From Psychrobium sp. MM17-31 (GTDB taxonomy: Bacteria > Pseudomonadota > Gammaproteobacteria > Enterobacterales > Psychrobiaceae), in contig NZ_JAKRGA010000003.1 in NCBI RefSeq assembly GCF_022347785.1, positions 372,001 to 436,000 of the forward strand: a stretch of 64,000 nucleotides of DNA. The letters are read 5' to 3'. The notes under the pieces are model-generated. The model ran no database searches and was not told where the DNA came from. It worked only from the letters and a program-made list of their open reading frames with translations. Both the position numbers and the translations under genes were made by a program. Shown one piece after another: positions 3,338 through 53,968 of the stretch (position 1 is the stretch's first letter; each line of letters opens with the position of its first letter).

Positions 3338-3676
3338 ATGAGTGAAGGCATTCATTTTAACGGCAAAGACTACGCCGTCGACAAGCACAACTACCTAACC
3401 AACCTCGACGATTGGAACGAAGAACTCGCTGAGCACATCGCAGGGTTAGAAAACATCACACTAACGAGCGAGCACTGGCAAGTAGTGAACTTCATCCGTC
3501 AATTCTACATAGAATTCGACACCAGCCCAGCCGTGCGCATGTTAGTAAAAGCCGTCGCCAAAGAATTCGGTCCCGAAAAAGGCAACAGCCGCTATCTCTA
3601 CAGCCTATTCCCAAAAGGCCCAGCCAAGCAAGCGACTAGAATTGCAGGTTTGCCGAAACCAGCGAAGTGTATTTAA
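3338..3676 (+). CDS. tusE: TusE/DsrC-family sulfur carrier protein
   Basis: A 112-residue DsrC-family protein that takes sulfur from TusBCD and presents it to the thiouridylase MnmA. The conserved motif [20 protein letters not shown] runs toward the C-terminus, and the essential cysteine is the penultimate residue (KCI end). The second cysteine that dissimilatory DsrC carries about eleven residues upstream is replaced here by Thr, so a tRNA-thiolation role (TusE) is preferred over sulfite reduction. Start at ATG 3338; an in-frame TTG at 3323 would overlap tusB and has no better signal. Confidence 0.93.
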
Positions 3677-3702
3677 CATGATTGCGAACACAAGGAAGTG
3701 AT

Positions 3703-4992
3703 ATGAAAATTCGTTATATAGTTCTAGTTTGTGCCGTTATCATTAGCGCTAGCCTCTATTACCTCTTTGCCGATGAAGATCTCAATCCAGAAATCATCGC
3801 TATCCAACAGCAATATGCAAAACCTATAAATCTCGATAACAATGTGTATATCGAAATGATGAGTTGGCAATATTTAGATAGTGACAACCCGTACCAATTA
3901 GCTGTTAATACGTATAAAAAGCAAGTTAAAGAACTTAGAGCAATTTCGGTACGAGAAATTTCTCCTATTCGATACCCACAAGTCGAATTCCCGAGTACAG
4001 AAGAAAGCATCCCTTACTGTGACCTGAATACTGAATCTTGTATCGCGACTATCATAGAGCAGAGCCAAGATTTAACTAAGTTAATTTCGGACAACCAAGT
4101 ATATTTAAATCGATTTTATAAATTGGCAGAGTTCGATAACTTTCAAGCCTTAAACCCTTTACTAGTCAAGACTAATTATGATTTTACAGTGCTCTATAGA
4201 TTAGCTGCGTTGGACATTCTATATAAACTCGAAAGCGAACAAATAGAAGAAGCAGAAAAATCAATTACTCGATTAATCACAATTGATCGTAAATTTATGG
4301 CGACGACTAACGAATTTATATTCAAGATCATTTCTATTTCAAATTTTAGCCAGATTCATCTGCCTTTGATAACACGACTTATTGTTAAGAAGAGTAACCC
4401 AAAAATCGATTTACTAAAGCCTTTAACGAGCGAAGAAATAACTTTCAATGAGGTTTGGCGCTCCGAGCTATATTACATGATTAGCCTTTTAACATCTGAA
4501 GACATTTTCTCGAAAACAAAAGACGTTCCAAACTCTCAGAATTTCATTATGAAAATGTTAATGTTCAAGAAACATATGACCTTTAATGAAATTGGCGAGT
4601 TTTACCTTACTCAAGTTATCTCAACTACTAGTACTAAAGCACAATATTTTCAAGATGTTAAATCAATGAAAGATATTATCGCGGAATTTCATGAGCAGCA
4701 CGAATTTTATCAAAGATGCTCATTCTGCAGTATTGCGACTAACTTAAATAACATCGTGGGTCATTTAATTACAATTACGACGATGCCCAAATATACAGAT
4801 TTGTATTCAAGAATCATTAATATTGATTTGGAGTTACAATTGCTACGCCTTAAAGTTTCAAACCCCAAAGGCGTTGAAGAAGTGATATTATCGAAAAAGC
4901 AGTGGCAAGAACCTTATCTGAACAGTAGTCCATTTATTAAAAGCGATAAACTTTGTTATGCAGTTGCAGATGAAGTTTGTATTAAACGATAG
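3703..4992 (+). CDS. Unknown protein with N-terminal membrane anchor
   Basis: A 429-residue protein that I do not recognise. The start is ATG with AAGGAAG eight to ten bases upstream. Residues about 3-23 form a hydrophobic helix after a basic start (MKIR), which suggests a membrane anchor or uncleaved signal, with the remaining 400 residues outside the cytoplasm. That region is rich in Ile, Leu, Lys and Glu, looks mostly helical, and has cysteine pairs near residues 105-111 and 339-342 that could form disulfides. It follows tusE by 26 bp but its content does not suggest sulfur relay. It is more AT-rich than the tus genes. Confidence 0.75.
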   Translation: MKIRYIVLVCAVIISASLYYLFADEDLNPEIIAIQQQYAKPINLDNNVYIEMMSWQYLDSDNPYQLAVNTYKKQVKELRAISVREISPIRYPQVEFPSTEESIPYCDLNTESCIATIIEQSQDLTKLISDNQVYLNRFYKLAEFDNFQALNPLLVKTNYDFTVLYRLAALDILYKLESEQIEEAEKSITRLITIDRKFMATTNEFIFKIISISNFSQIHLPLITRLIVKKSNPKIDLLKPLTSEEITFNEVWRSELYYMISLLTSEDIFSKTKDVPNSQNFIMKMLMFKKHMTFNEIGEFYLTQVISTTSTKAQYFQDVKSMKDIIAEFHEQHEFYQRCSFCSIATNLNNIVGHLITITTMPKYTDLYSRIINIDLELQLLRLKVSNPKGVEEVILSKKQWQEPYLNSSPFIKSDKLCYAVADEVCIKR

Positions 4993-5041
4993 TTTGTTCA
5001 ATTAGCTGCACCCATTGAGATTGAGTCCACTTATAGTATTC

Positions 5042-5078
5042 AAAAAAAACCGCCAACAACTCTCGTTATTGGCGGTTT
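5042..5078. terminator. Hairpin terminator, mainly for the minus strand
   Basis: AAACCGCCAACAA (5047-5059) pairs with 5066-5078 apart from one mismatch, around CTCTCG. The eight A at 5042-5049 become a U-run on the minus strand, ending the lipoprotein gene. It is nearly the same sequence as the hairpin at 5767-5800. Confidence 0.8.
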
Positions 5079-5117
5079 GCCCAGATTAATGATTAAGTTA
5101 GTCTGGCCTTATTTACT

Positions 5118-5585
5118 CTAATATCTACAAGTTTTATCTGTATCTTTTATTGCTGAAGTACTAACTAATTCCTCTCCTATCTTCTCATACCCTAAAGCAC
5201 GGTGTGGGGGAAAAACTTCGAATTTATAAAACTTTCCCTCTTCCGGAGTAATTAGTTTACTCACGTAATTCTGTCGTTGATCTGTGACGCCTCTGAAATC
5301 AGGCGTCCTAAAAGTAATTACATAAGACTTACCTGTTTCAAGTATTGATTGAAAAGATTTAGTTTCTTCTTTCGAGGCTTCGAGTAGCCCAAGGTGAAAA
5401 ACCTTGTCACATTTCGTTGAAGGAAATAAGAATACAGAAGTGTAAGTATTTCCCATTGTTTTAGAAATAACCACTTGCGACTCAAACTCTATAACTGCAG
5501 TTTTCGCATCTTTGGGAGGAGAATAAATAGGTGCTGCACAACCAGTAATAAATAAAACAATTGTGAATAAAATTTTATGTTTCAA
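5118..5585 (-). CDS. Small predicted lipoprotein
   Basis: A 155-residue protein with a lipoprotein signal: basic MKHK, a hydrophobic stretch, then the lipobox ITGC at residues 13-16 with mature N-terminus CAAPIYSPP. The start is TTG, with AGGGA about eight bases upstream. After processing it would be a lipid-anchored periplasmic or outer-membrane protein of about 140 residues. The mature part is predicted to be largely beta-rich, and two further Cys (near residues 59 and 153) could pair. No function is assigned. It stands between two near-identical terminators and so is its own unit. Confidence 0.75.
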   Translation of the reverse strand: MKHKILFTIVLFITGCAAPIYSPPKDAKTAVIEFESQVVISKTMGNTYTSVFLFPSTKCDKVFHLGLLEASKEETKSFQSILETGKSYVITFRTPDFRGVTDQRQNYVSKLITPEEGKFYKFEVFPPHRALGYEKIGEELVSTSAIKDTDKTCRY

Positions 5586-5766
5586 AATAATCCCTATTGA
5601 TTTTTTCGATATAATAACAATACCTTATTGTATCTTCAAGCATCAGGGAACTATCAAAGATCAGCGTATTAAACCAGTGCCTCAAATTAATTAACAGCAG
5701 TTAAATAGTTTACTCACTGAGACTTTTAATATTGCTGACATGACTTGAAAAATATGAACTAGATAA

Positions 5767-5800
5767 AAAACCGCCAATAACTCTCGTCATTGGCGGTTTT
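5767..5800. terminator. Hairpin terminator after purL
   Basis: AAAACCGCCAATAA (5767-5780) pairs with 5787-5800 except one position, around CTCTCG. A-runs on the left and T-runs on the right make it usable in both directions; on the minus strand it ends purL. Confidence 0.85.
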
Positions 5801-5826
5801 CTCAATTTAGCGAATTAGCTTATCGC

Positions 5827-8800
5827 TTACCCTACATTAACACGTGCGTTGCGGAACATACGCATCCATGGGCTGTCTTCGCGCCATGCTTTCGGGTGCC
5901 ATGAGTTAGCCACAGCGCGGAATACACGCTCTGGGTGTGGCATCATGATGGTTACACGGCCATCTGTCGTGGTTAAGCCAGTGATACCAGCTACCGAACC
6001 GTTTGGATTGGATGGGTAGTTTTCAGTAACTTGACCGTGGTTATCAACGTATTGCAGTGCCACTGTGCCGCTGTTTAATGCCGCTTGTGCTGCCGCAGCG
6101 TCTTTAAACTCGGCGTGACCTTCACCGTGTGATACAGCAATTGGCATTACAGAACCCGCCATACCGTTTAGGAACATTGATGGTGATTCTTGAACTTTCA
6201 CTAAGCTAAAGCGCGCTTCAAAACGCTCAGATTTATTTTGCACAAAGTGTGGCCATAAATCGCTGCCCGGGATTAGCTCTTTTAGGTTTGATAGCATCTG
6301 ACAGCCATTACACACACCTAAGCTGAAGGTGTTGTCGCGGCTGAAGAAGTTACCGAATTGGTCGCGTGCTAAATCGTTAAACAAGATTGATTTCGCCCAG
6401 CCTTCACCAGCGCCTAGTACGTCACCGTAAGAGAAACCGCCACAAGCAACCATGCCGTGGAATTCTTCTAGCGATACCTTGCCAGAAAGGATATCTGACA
6501 TGTGTACATCTTTCGCCGCGAAACCAGCGCGGTTAAACGCCGCCGCCATTTCTACGTGGGAGTTAACCCCCTGCTCGCGCAGGATAGCTACTTGTGGTTT
6601 AGCACCTGTTGCGATGTATGGCGCTGCCACGTCTTCATTGATATCAAATGATAAGTCAGCAAATAGACCTGGGTTGCTATCGTCAGTTTTTAGTGCGTAT
6701 TCTTGCTCGGCACACGCTGGGTTATCACGCAGCTTTTGCATTTCATAGCTGGTTTTCGACCACAGTTTGCGTAAATCTGAGCGTGTTGCGCTAAATTCAG
6801 CATTGCCATCAACAAACACGTTAACTGTGTTGTTATCGTTTAGTGTTGCTACTGTACTAGTTAAGCTTGTTAAACCATTAGCCGCTAACACCGCGTTTAC
6901 TGCGTCGATATCTTCATTCTTAACTTGGATTACCGCACCTAGCTCTTCGTTAAATAGCTGCGCTAATACATCGCCTTGTGGCAAGTTGATGTCTAAACCA
7001 GTGTTACCCGCGAACGCCATTTCTGTGAGCGTTGTGAATAAACCGCCATCTGAACGATCGTGGTAAGACAGTAATTTACCCTCAGCTAATAAGGTTTGAA
7101 TTGCGGTGAAGAAGCCTTTTAATAACTCAGGGTTGTCAACGTCTGGCGTTACATCACCAAGTTGCTTGTAAACCTGCGCTAATACAGAGCCGCCTAAACG
7201 CGCTTGACCGTTACCTAAGTCGATAAGTAATAGTTGCGTTTCACCTTCGTCAGTAATCAGTTGCGGCGTTAGCGTGTTGCGAATGTCTGCCACCGGCGCG
7301 AATGCTGTCATGATTAATGACATTGGCGCGGTAACAGATTTGTCTTCGCCATTTTCCTGCCATTTCGTTTTCATCGACATCGAGTCTTTACCAACTGGGA
7401 TAGTAATGCCTAATGCCGGACATAACTCTTCGCCTACCGCTTTAACAGCTTCGTATAAACCAGCGTCTTCACCTGGGTGACCAGCTGCCGACATCCAGTT
7501 CGCCGACATTTGAATTTGGCTAATGTCGCCGATGTGCGTTGATGCGATATTGGTAATGGCTTCAGCCACTGACATACGCGCCGATGCGCCAAAGTTAAGC
7601 AGTGCGATTGGGCTACGCTCGCCCATTGCCATGGCTTCACCGCCGTACGTATCGAAACTCGCTGCGGTAACAGCACAGTTTGCTACTGGTACTTGCCACG
7701 GGCCAACCATTTGGTCACGTGCTACTAAACCAGTTACGGTACGGTCACCGATGGTGATCAAGAAGCCTTTATCGGCAACGGTTGGCAAGCTAAGTACACG
7801 CATTACCGCGTCATCTAATGAAATATCGTCTGTTGCTAACGCTTCACCTTTAGCCGTTTGTGTTTTAACGTCGCGGCTCATTTTTGGTGGCTTACCAAGT
7901 AATACGTCAAGCGGCATATCGATTGGGGTATTATCGAAGTGGCTATCAGAAAGTGTTAGATGTTCTTCTTGTGTCGCTTCACCAACGATGGCGTATGGCG
8001 CGCGTTCACGTTGACAGATAGCGTCAAACTCGTCGATTTTGTCGCTTGGTACTGCGATTACGTAGCGCTCTTGTGATTCGTTACACCAGATTTCGTGTGG
8101 TGCCATACCCGGCTCATCGTTTGGTACGTTGCGTAGTTCAAACTTACCGCCACGACCACCGTCGTGTACTAATTCTGGGAATGCATTTGAAATACCCCCT
8201 GCGCCAACATCATGAATAAAGGCGATTGGGTTGTCTTCGCCTAGCTGCCAACAACGGTCAATAACTTCCTGACAACGACGCTCCATTTCTGGGTTCTCAC
8301 GTTGTACAGAAGCAAAGTCTAAGTCTTCCGCTGATTGACCTGATGCCATTGACGATGCCGCACCGCCGCCAAGGCCGATGTTCATCGCAGGGCCACCAAG
8401 GACGATTAGCTTCGCGCCTACTGGAATTTCACCTTTTTCAACGTGTTGCTCGCGAATGTTACCCAAGCCACCAGCAATCATAATTGGTTTGTGGTAACCG
8501 CGAACTTCTAGACCGTTGTGGGAGTTTACTTGCTCTTCATAAGTACGGAAGTAACCACATAACGCAGGACGACCGAATTCGTTGTTAAACGCCGCGCCGC
8601 CAAGTGGGCCTTCAATCATAATGTCTAATGCAGAAACAATGCGATCAGGCTTGCCGTAATTCGCTTCCCATGGCTGCTTTGCGCCCGGAATGTTTAAGTT
8701 AGATACGGTAAAACCTGTTAAGCCAGCCTTTGGCTTAGAGCCACGACCTGTTGCGCCTTCGTCGCGAATTTCACCACCAGAGCCCGTTGCCGCGCCTGGG

Positions 8801-41505: not shown

Positions 41506-41582
41506 TGGCGGAGTGGACGGGACTCGAACCCGCGACCCCCGGCGTGACAGGCCGGTATTCTAACCAACTGAACTACCACTCC
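41506..41582 (-). tRNA. tRNA-Asp(GUC), sixth in transcription order
   Basis: A 77-nt minus-strand tRNA with encoded CCA. Acceptor GGAGTGG/CCACTCC, D-loop AGTTGGTTAGAA, anticodon loop CTGTCAC (GTC) and T-loop GGTTCGAGTCC. It is identical in the mature region to the other five copies. Confidence 0.97.
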
Positions 41583-41618
41583 ACATACGTGAACCATAGT
41601 TCGATATTTTTACATGAT

Positions 41619-41695
41619 TGGCGGAGTGGACGGGACTCGAACCCGCGACCCCCGGCGTGACAGGCCGGTATTCTAACCAACTGAACTACCACTCC
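41619..41695 (-). tRNA. tRNA-Asp(GUC), fifth in transcription order
   Basis: The mature region and CCA end are the same as the neighbouring copies. A 36-bp spacer separates it from the next gene downstream. Confidence 0.97.
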
Positions 41696-41736
41696 ACACA
41701 TCGTGTAAGCAAGTTTTTGTAAACACTGATATAGAT

Positions 41737-41813
41737 TGGCGGAGTGGACGGGACTCGAACCCGCGACCCCCGGCGTGACAGGCCGGTATTCTAACCAACT
41801 GAACTACCACTCC
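41737..41813 (-). tRNA. tRNA-Asp(GUC), fourth in transcription order
   Basis: The 77-nt mature sequence is the same, with anticodon GTC. The spacer to the next copy downstream is 41 bp and differs in sequence from the other spacers. Confidence 0.97.
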
Positions 41814-41881
41814 GCATATCGCATAGCGTTTATAACTACTTTTAAAACCATTGAGAATTACAACAAAAACTGAGAAGAAAT

Positions 41882-41958
41882 TGGCGGAGTGGACGGGACT
41901 CGAACCCGCGACCCCCGGCGTGACAGGCCGGTATTCTAACCAACTGAACTACCACTCC
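41882..41958 (-). tRNA. tRNA-Asp(GUC), third in transcription order
   Basis: The 77-nt mature sequence is the same, with anticodon GTC. The 68-bp spacer to the next copy downstream is the longest in the array; no second promoter is evident in it. Confidence 0.97.
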
Positions 41959-42004
41959 GCGAGATGAAACATCTGCTTCGATTACTTCTTATTTTTCATT
42001 GTAT

Positions 42005-42081
42005 TGGCGGAGTGGACGGGACTCGAACCCGCGACCCCCGGCGTGACAGGCCGGTATTCTAACCAACTGAACTACCACTCC
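42005..42081 (-). tRNA. tRNA-Asp(GUC), second in transcription order
   Basis: The 77-nt mature sequence is the same, with anticodon GTC; the spacer downstream is 46 bp. Confidence 0.97.
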
Positions 42082-42109
42082 ACGAAACAATGGGACACTA
42101 CTTTTAAAT

Positions 42110-42186
42110 TGGCGGAGTGGACGGGACTCGAACCCGCGACCCCCGGCGTGACAGGCCGGTATTCTAACCAACTGAACTACCACTCC
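42110..42186 (-). tRNA. tRNA-Asp(GUC), first in transcription order
   Basis: The 77-nt mature sequence is the same, with anticodon GTC; the spacer downstream is 28 bp. It is the promoter-proximal copy of the array. Confidence 0.97.
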
Positions 42187-52561: not shown

Positions 52562-52652
52562 GGTGGATCCTAATATTAATATTGCACCACCACAGACCTG
52601 AGGTCTTAAACTAAAATTTCAGTTTTTTTAAATTATTTTTATCTCTTTGACA

Positions 52653-53057
52653 TTATGTCGTCTGAAGCTGCAAGGACTCATCTAGCTCGAGCGGCATGAT
52701 TCGCTCAATAAGCGCCTGAAATTCCTCGACGGTATTTTCGTGATTCTCTATCTGAGCTAAATCATCAACATGAATGAGATTAAGATATCCCATACTCCAA
52801 TTGTGGAACCTGCGATGTGTTAGTGGATGCTCATAGATCTTAGTTACATCGTGATGGCGTTCGTCCATGACGATCCTGTGATATAGACTATCGATATAAT
52901 CTTCTGGGCCTTCTATGTATTGATAAAAGCCATCAATAACAGTTACTAAGATCCCAGTAATTTGGTGTTGGCTATTGTGAATTCTTGCTTTTCGCAGTAA
53001 TTCGTTTAAATCAATATCCGACAGTAATGCCTTACTTTTGTAAATTATCGCCTTCAC
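52653..53057 (-). CDS. Stand-alone BLUF-domain blue-light sensor
   Basis: A 134-residue protein consisting of a BLUF flavin domain (about 1-95) and a short helical tail. The flavin-site residues line up with AppA spacing: Tyr6 (IIYKS), Asn28 (ARIHN), Gln46 (FYQYIEG), Trp87 and Met89 (NWSMG); the family RH in DERHH is also present. Start GTG 53057 has GGAG eight bases upstream and begins directly at the first beta strand. It overlaps the end of the upstream GGDEF gene by 26 bp, so the two are translated together. It has no output domain, so it probably signals by protein contact. Confidence 0.88.
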   Translation of the reverse strand: MKAIIYKSKALLSDIDLNELLRKARIHNSQHQITGILVTVIDGFYQYIEGPEDYIDSLYHRIVMDERHHDVTKIYEHPLTHRRFHNWSMGYLNLIHVDDLAQIENHENTVEEFQALIERIMPLELDESLQLQTT

Positions 53058-53802
53058 TTTGTGCACTCCTTTGCTCAAACTTATCAATATACATATGTTG
53101 ATCTGCTTCTTTAATTGCTTTGAAAAGATTACGATGAGTATTTTTCGCCCAACCAACACTAAAAGTGATTTGAGTATCAGTTAAGTGATTGCTAATACGC
53201 TCAATAATCGTCGTTAGATCAGTTTCATATCGAAATACAATAACAATAAATTCATCGCCGCCATAACGACAAACAATATCATTTAATCGAACGCTATCGG
53301 TTAACGCTTTGGCAAATGTCTTAATATACAAGTTTCCGTATTCATGGCCTTTTTGATCGTTAACTTTCTTTAAGCCGTTAAGATCAAAGAAATAAACCAC
53401 AAAATCCTCTTTCGACAACTGCCGTTCGATGCGCTTTAAATGGTTAAAATTATAGGTATCGGTAAGCAAATCACGATAGCTCTCGTATTCAATAGCGGCT
53501 TTGTTTTTATAAATAAGGTTGGTCCCACGCTCTATTAACAAGCGCAAGAAATTGACGTTAGATTCAATGCGTGAAATGAACTTCATGGTTGCAACAATAA
53601 TATCTAACTTACGAGTCGCATTACTCGGCGTAATATGATCGTCGATAGTCTGAATATTACTTGCACAGTTACTTTCTGAAGTCATATAAGAAATGATTTC
53701 ATAGGTATACACCAATTCATTGAGACTAATAAAAGATAATCTGCTCCTTAATTCTTTTATCAGCTCATCATAAGCAATTGAATTTGCATTGAATGACGTC
53801 AT
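53032..53802 (-). CDS. Diguanylate cyclase (GGDEF) coupled to the BLUF gene
   Basis: A 256-residue soluble protein. The N-terminal 100 residues are helical and of unknown family. The GGDEF domain (about 105-250) has an intact RYGGDEF (181-185) and FDLNGLKKVND for metal binding, so it should make c-di-GMP. No TM segment is seen. Start ATG 53802 (MTSFNAN) is preferred; an in-frame TTG at 53823 would add seven residues and lies on a GAGGGG. Its 3' end overlaps the BLUF gene, which argues that the light sensor regulates this cyclase. Confidence 0.88.
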   Translation of the reverse strand: MTSFNANSIAYDELIKELRSRLSFISLNELVYTYEIISYMTSESNCASNIQTIDDHITPSNATRKLDIIVATMKFISRIESNVNFLRLLIERGTNLIYKNKAAIEYESYRDLLTDTYNFNHLKRIERQLSKEDFVVYFFDLNGLKKVNDQKGHEYGNLYIKTFAKALTDSVRLNDIVCRYGGDEFIVIVFRYETDLTTIIERISNHLTDTQITFSVGWAKNTHRNLFKAIKEADQHMYIDKFEQRSAQSEGDNLQK

Positions 53803-53968
53803 GTCGTTGAGATTACCCCTCAAAGAAAAATAGATGGCGCGTTCCTAATTGTTTGATACTACCAGCGAAAAATATACAAGTAAAAAGCATTAGTTAAATC
53901 ACGCACACTAAATAAGGCAAACCGTTGTTAAATCAATTTATACCTTAGATAGCTTATAAAGTAGCGGT

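Follow-up and report, generated by a model that had tools for sequence, protein, structure and literature searches.

In the 64,000-nucleotide stretch of Psychrobium sp. MM17-31 DNA analyzed here (the window), a gene for a short blue-light photoreceptor of the BLUF type overlaps a gene for a GGDEF-domain cyclase, raising two linked questions: does the photoreceptor control the cyclase, and what does the cyclase make? Our analysis indicates that the two genes probably constitute a mobile two-gene unit, in which the short BLUF protein binds its own cyclase and blue light changes the rate of that enzyme. The identity of the product is less straightforward, as both positions that set nucleobase selectivity depart from the canonical residues in every cyclase paired in this way.

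The coordinates of the two open reading frames agree with the 26-bp overlap reported in the first-pass annotation, and the GGDEF motif that it described as intact reads RYGGDEF in the cyclase (Table 1). An alternative TTG start for the GGDEF reading frame is possible upstream, at 53823. Promoter and terminator scans gave fewer matches than in shuffled sequence, and no riboswitch was found, either in the window or near five of the ten Vibrio pairs described below. A 13-base near-palindrome, AGACCTGAGGTCT, lies at 52594-52606 between the BLUF and thioredoxin-like genes and is partly kept in congeners. At some distance from the pair, the window also holds six tRNA-Asp genes in tandem (41506-42186; anticodon GTC).

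Table 1. Coordinates of the GGDEF-BLUF gene pair and its parts in the window.
Feature	Position	Strand	Remarks
Cyclase gene	53032..53802	minus	256 aa, ATG start; GGDEF domain at aa 111-245, after a ~110-aa N-terminal region
Short BLUF photoreceptor gene	52653..53057	minus	134 aa, GTG start; short C-terminal extension beyond the BLUF core
Gene overlap, 26 bp	53032..53057	minus	BLUF gene begins within the cyclase gene
AAAGGAG, Shine-Dalgarno-like, for the BLUF gene	53066..53072	minus	Within the cyclase gene, 8 nt 5' of the GTG
Interval holding the pair, between thioredoxin-like and MOSC-like genes	52562..53968	n/a	From comparison with congeners

The BLUF protein matches the Pfam BLUF family (PF04940) over residues 2-90 of 134 (E 5e-26; 91.1 bits against a cut-off of 25) and contains no second Pfam domain, which makes it a BLUF protein of the short type. 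Few short BLUF proteins have known partners, and they are the majority class, accounting for 64% of BLUF proteins in a published survey (PMC4844311). Tyr6, Ser8, Asn28, Gln46, Trp87, and Met89 are all present in the window protein; the photochemical Tyr6 and Gln46, the flavin-contacting Asn28, and Trp87 and Met89 of the last strand are invariant across all 11 paired BLUF proteins. The gene is the sole BLUF gene of its genome, which also has about 50 GGDEF and 29 EAL domains.

In the cyclase, the GGDEF domain (E 3e-22) is the only Pfam match above its cut-off, and the partner protein likewise shows GGDEF matches only, with no EAL domain, in all 11 pairs. D140, K145, N148, and G181-F185, which include the motif and the catalytic metal residues, are invariant in the 11 paired cyclases. 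All 11 also carry an I-site, in the window an RLND sequence five residues ahead of the motif (RLND-IVCRY-GGDEF). The N-terminal region of the cyclase has no match to any Pfam family or solved structure. It is predicted to be all-helical, with a long last helix that enters the GGDEF domain, in a structure model of low confidence in this region (pLDDT ~40) that was built on a two-sequence alignment and is poor overall (mean pLDDT 52.9).

The first-pass annotation proposed a search for the same gene pair in other genomes. We screened 395 genomes of the order for BLUF and, on inspecting the fetched neighborhoods, identified an overlapping GGDEF-BLUF pair in two further genomes, both Vibrio (G178 and G307). 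Within 228 Vibrio genomes, a BLUF profile search returned ten strong matches (E <= 2.6e-29), followed by a gap to E values of at least 2.5e-22. In all ten strong matches, and in none of the next 20 loci, the BLUF gene is preceded and overlapped by a same-strand GGDEF gene; the overlap spans 4-35 bp, being 4 bp in seven of the Vibrio relatives and 7, 11, and 35 bp in the remaining three. With the N-terminal region of the cyclase as query, without its GGDEF domain, we recovered the same ten of the 228 Vibrio genomes, one copy in each. An overlapping pair in every one of the ten Vibrio genomes with this BLUF subgroup is more than chance would give. Beyond the pair, searches with the N-terminal region produced nothing convincing, yielding known members and two weak partial matches in the order (395 genomes) and the window alone in the class (229 genomes); in the genomes searched, this region is confined to the pair. 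Our profiles were built from pair members themselves and could miss more distant pairs, yet they cover N-terminal regions whose identity to that of the window falls to 14%, so the profile model is not narrow. Among 84,980 genomes, the window BLUF protein alone found no match, and the BLUF alignment found only the uncultured Vibrio contig of G307, three Methylococcaceae, and one Pelagimonas BLUF.

At loci L041, L069 (G164, 3371-3754), and L092, BLUF genes that come close to the paired subgroup have no adjoining cyclase gene; these three may be remnants of the pair or its ancestors, and they show that such a BLUF can exist without the cyclase. The closest unpaired cyclases, at L003 and L004, carry a hydrophobic, membrane-type N-terminus and lie among unrelated genes. 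Other arrangements of the two gene types also occurred in our set. In G031, a short BLUF gene is preceded, 126 bp away on its own strand, by a PAS-GGDEF gene with canonical GGDEF residues (L107, 2873-4480); the two are possibly an independent BLUF-cyclase pair. In Vibrio G052, stops or a frameshift interrupt a BLUF gene that stands beside a divergent GGDEF gene (L040/L043), and the divergent BLUF/GGDEF arrangement is intact at L159, L160, and L168.

We compared the histories of the two genes in phylogenetic trees. In a tree of 47 GGDEF domains, all 11 partner cyclases fall into a single clade (support 95), and in the BLUF tree the paired proteins cluster together with three unpaired BLUF proteins (support 86; 3 changes versus 10.7 when shuffled). 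The same subgroups recur in both trees, and the two distance matrices correlate closely (r = 0.93, p = 0.0001). This congruence does not prove contact, because genes that are linked have a common history even if their products never meet. The pair occupies at least six distinct chromosomal contexts, at least five of them other than that of the window. In several Vibrio genomes it lies beside the aspartyl-tRNA synthetase gene, and it lies elsewhere in G876/G760, G885, G892, and G307. In the window it is flanked by thioredoxin-like and MOSC-like genes, and in congeners G007 and G008 the corresponding interval matches the window on both sides, measures about 120 bp, and lacks the pair. The varied contexts and this empty interval indicate that the pair moves as a unit. 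We found no plasmid or phage carrying it, the best plasmid BLUF matches being less than 40% identical.

Nine congeners have no BLUF gene of any kind, and a gain of the pair by this lineage is more probable than its repeated loss. The absence of the pair from these nine congeners, its low G+C content (36%, versus 43% around it), and the empty site in G007 and G008 would also fit a passing acquisition without function, in which the insertion reached one species of the genus and is perhaps neutral. We regard this as very improbable, because the catalytic, I-site, and flavin-site residues are all intact even though identity to the nearest relatives found is only 36-46%, and because dN/dS values of 0.06-0.15 among close relatives place both genes under purifying selection. 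A harder alternative to dismiss is that the genes are co-transcribed and serve ends that are related but distinct, with the BLUF protein acting on another partner and the cyclase answering another signal or running constitutively. BlsA and YcgF, which act on transcription factors, provide a model for such an arrangement. It would also agree with the three near BLUF relatives that have no cyclase gene, and with the binding of regulators by short BLUF proteins of other bacteria (PMC8508746). We consider it unlikely, since the one-to-one association of a BLUF subgroup with a cyclase clade and a special N-terminal region, seen across varied contexts in 10 of the 228 Vibrio genomes, would be hard to maintain without a shared task.

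Because the two genes form a conserved, overlapping, and co-inherited unit, control of the cyclase by the BLUF protein is the best reading of the locus. In this model, the upstream gene would supply a soluble cyclase consisting of a dedicated N-terminal region and a GGDEF domain, and the downstream gene, starting within the first, the short BLUF photoreceptor. The BLUF protein would bind the cyclase encoded with it. The N-terminal region is the most likely place, being the obvious candidate both for this contact and for keeping the dimer of the enzyme together; since the region matches no Pfam family or structure and its AlphaFold model is poor, the docking site is a guess. Blue light would switch the hydrogen bonds between flavin, Tyr, and Gln and shift the C-terminal part of the BLUF protein. 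GGDEF enzymes act as dimers (PMC6456294), and we propose that the BLUF movement alters the placing of the two GGDEF domains in the dimer and thereby the rate. Light may turn the cyclase on or off, and the sequence favors neither; the effect opposite in sign to that of BLUF-EAL proteins such as BlrP1, as the first-pass annotation proposed, is one of the two possible outcomes.

What the paired cyclases make may hinge on two positions in the GGDEF domain. The base-selectivity residue is Asp344 in PleD and Ser in cGAMP-making Hypr enzymes (PMC9140294, PMC6456294). All 11 paired cyclases read GHxxGN, where the final Asn (Asn157 in the window) falls at this position; when the GGDEF domains available to us were aligned with an HMM, Asn occupied it in 11/11 paired cyclases and Asp in all 93 other domains that have a residue aligned to it, of which 46 come from the genome of the window. 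At the second, cross-dimer position, 94% of predicted diguanylate cyclases carry Arg and Geobacter GacA carries Tyr (PMC6456294). Ten paired cyclases, including that of the window (Phe119), align with Phe at this position and one with Tyr, versus Arg in 85 of 94 other GGDEF domains in the HMM alignment, which is local and gives two paired rows no residue here. Asn157 and Phe119 align, respectively, with Ser348 and Tyr304 in the structure of a Geobacter Hypr enzyme (6d9m). Moreover, the motif is GGDEF, never GGEEF, in all 11 paired cyclases, and Hypr enzymes likewise carry GGDEF (PMC6456294). The paired cyclases thus have the GGDEF and metal residues and the I-site of a canonical diguanylate cyclase and lack its selectivity Asp and cross-dimer Arg; they share with Hypr enzymes a non-Arg cross-dimer residue and the GGDEF form of the motif, and lack the Ser or Thr found at the Hypr selectivity position (PMC9140294, PMC6456294). 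Judged by these residues, they are neither Hypr enzymes by definition nor canonical diguanylate cyclases.

With both selectivity positions non-canonical in every paired cyclase, c-di-GMP as the product is uncertain, and the product may not be c-di-GMP, or not c-di-GMP alone. Of the initial proposal that light is coupled to c-di-GMP production, light control through the BLUF protein therefore stands as the best reading of the conserved pair, while the c-di-GMP part is in doubt. A variant of our model would keep binding and light control and have the enzyme also use ATP, which would put 3',3'-cGAMP, or several cyclic dinucleotides together, under the control of light. We rate this as a serious possibility, if not the expected outcome. 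It accords with the replacement of the GTP-selecting Asp and the cross-dimer Arg, with the location of both changes opposite the Hypr residues, and with the GGDEF motif; in addition, Asn offers a single hydrogen-bond donor alongside a single acceptor, with which it could recognize either purine. Against it, the Hypr selectivity residue is Ser or Thr and not Asn, the guanine-reading Asn on the sugar face is retained (N148), and Asn, almost isosteric with Asp, may still bind GTP. Our searches of the literature found no product assay of an Asn-variant GGDEF enzyme. More tentatively still, the pair could be a light-gated system of two proteins in which a separate BLUF receptor governs a GGDEF synthase whose base preference has changed and whose output is cGAMP or mixed cyclic dinucleotides instead of c-di-GMP alone; Asn plus Phe or Tyr would then mark a new GGDEF class. 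Whichever product is made, an invariant change at the base-selectivity position marks a GGDEF subgroup whose product should not be assumed, where domain annotation would say diguanylate cyclase.

Short BLUF genes also adjoin or overlap genes for GGDEF-EAL enzymes, at L083, L086, L087, L105, and L141, in other families of the order. As in the pair studied here, the gene for a c-di-GMP enzyme lies directly against that for a short BLUF protein; unlike here, the partner has an intact EAL domain and a mostly degenerate GGDEF domain. The BLUF proteins of L083, L086, L087, and L105 branch apart from the paired subgroup in the BLUF tree, from which a further GGDEF-EAL-linked BLUF, at L200 in Vibrio G885, was left out. 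At L200, the two kinds of pair stand back to back with 312 bp between them (4195-7448 overall): a GGDEF-BLUF pair on the plus strand (6314-7448), and, divergent from it on the minus strand (6001-4195), a GGDEF-EAL gene with an intact EAL motif that overlaps a short BLUF gene of its own. Genes for a SpoIIE-type response regulator and a chemoreceptor-like protein lie beyond the GGDEF-EAL/BLUF pair. BLUF-plus-enzyme gene pairs therefore exist with both kinds of enzyme, and the gene content of L200 suggests light control of both the making and the breaking of the messenger.

The first-pass annotation held that known BLUF proteins acting on c-di-GMP are fused to EAL domains, a statement that overlooks PapB-PapA of Rhodopseudomonas palustris, in which a short BLUF protein forms a complex with a separate EAL phosphodiesterase and the signal exits through the BLUF C-terminal helices (PMC8846402). 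Its suggestion that the two-gene arrangement is little described holds up better: we found no description of a BLUF protein paired with a stand-alone GGDEF protein in the open-access literature, and an earlier one is possible in subscription papers. A review of the field covers BLUF-linked phosphodiesterases and PapB-PapA, with short photoreceptor proteins acting on EAL proteins, and no BLUF-linked cyclase (PMC8846402). BLUF, GGDEF, and EAL domains in one chain are on record (PMC4844311, PMC8508746), and none of nine long BLUF frames that we inspected by motif fuses BLUF to GGDEF alone. In YcgF/BluF, the EAL domain has no phosphodiesterase activity (PMC3509220).

Several known systems resemble the pair in part. 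BlrP1 of Klebsiella pneumoniae and BldP share with it BLUF control of c-di-GMP turnover, predicted in our case, but fuse BLUF and EAL, with or without GGDEF, in c-di-GMP-degrading proteins, whereas the present pair comprises two proteins and a predicted synthase. Phytochrome-linked diguanylate cyclases such as PadC, and LOV-GGDEF proteins, also join a light sensor to a GGDEF cyclase, with a sensor that is fused and of another type. The Hypr enzymes GacA (GSU1658) and Bd0367, which make 3',3'-cGAMP, resemble the paired cyclases in their GGDEF fold, non-Asp selectivity residue, aromatic non-Arg cross-dimer residue, and GGDEF motif, and differ in having Ser or Thr in place of Asn, a receiver domain, and no BLUF partner. 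The closest counterpart is PapB-PapA, which likewise combines a stand-alone short BLUF protein with a separate cyclic-dinucleotide enzyme; its partner is an EAL phosphodiesterase rather than a GGDEF cyclase with intact motif and I-site, and the overlap of the genes sets apart the present pair. A short BLUF protein with a separate cyclic-dinucleotide enzyme would be of a known kind; the GGDEF-only partner appears to be new, and the residues of its active site are unexpected. If the BLUF protein controls its partner, the pair would constitute a two-part light-controlled cyclase made of two small soluble proteins, the counterpart of PapB-PapA.
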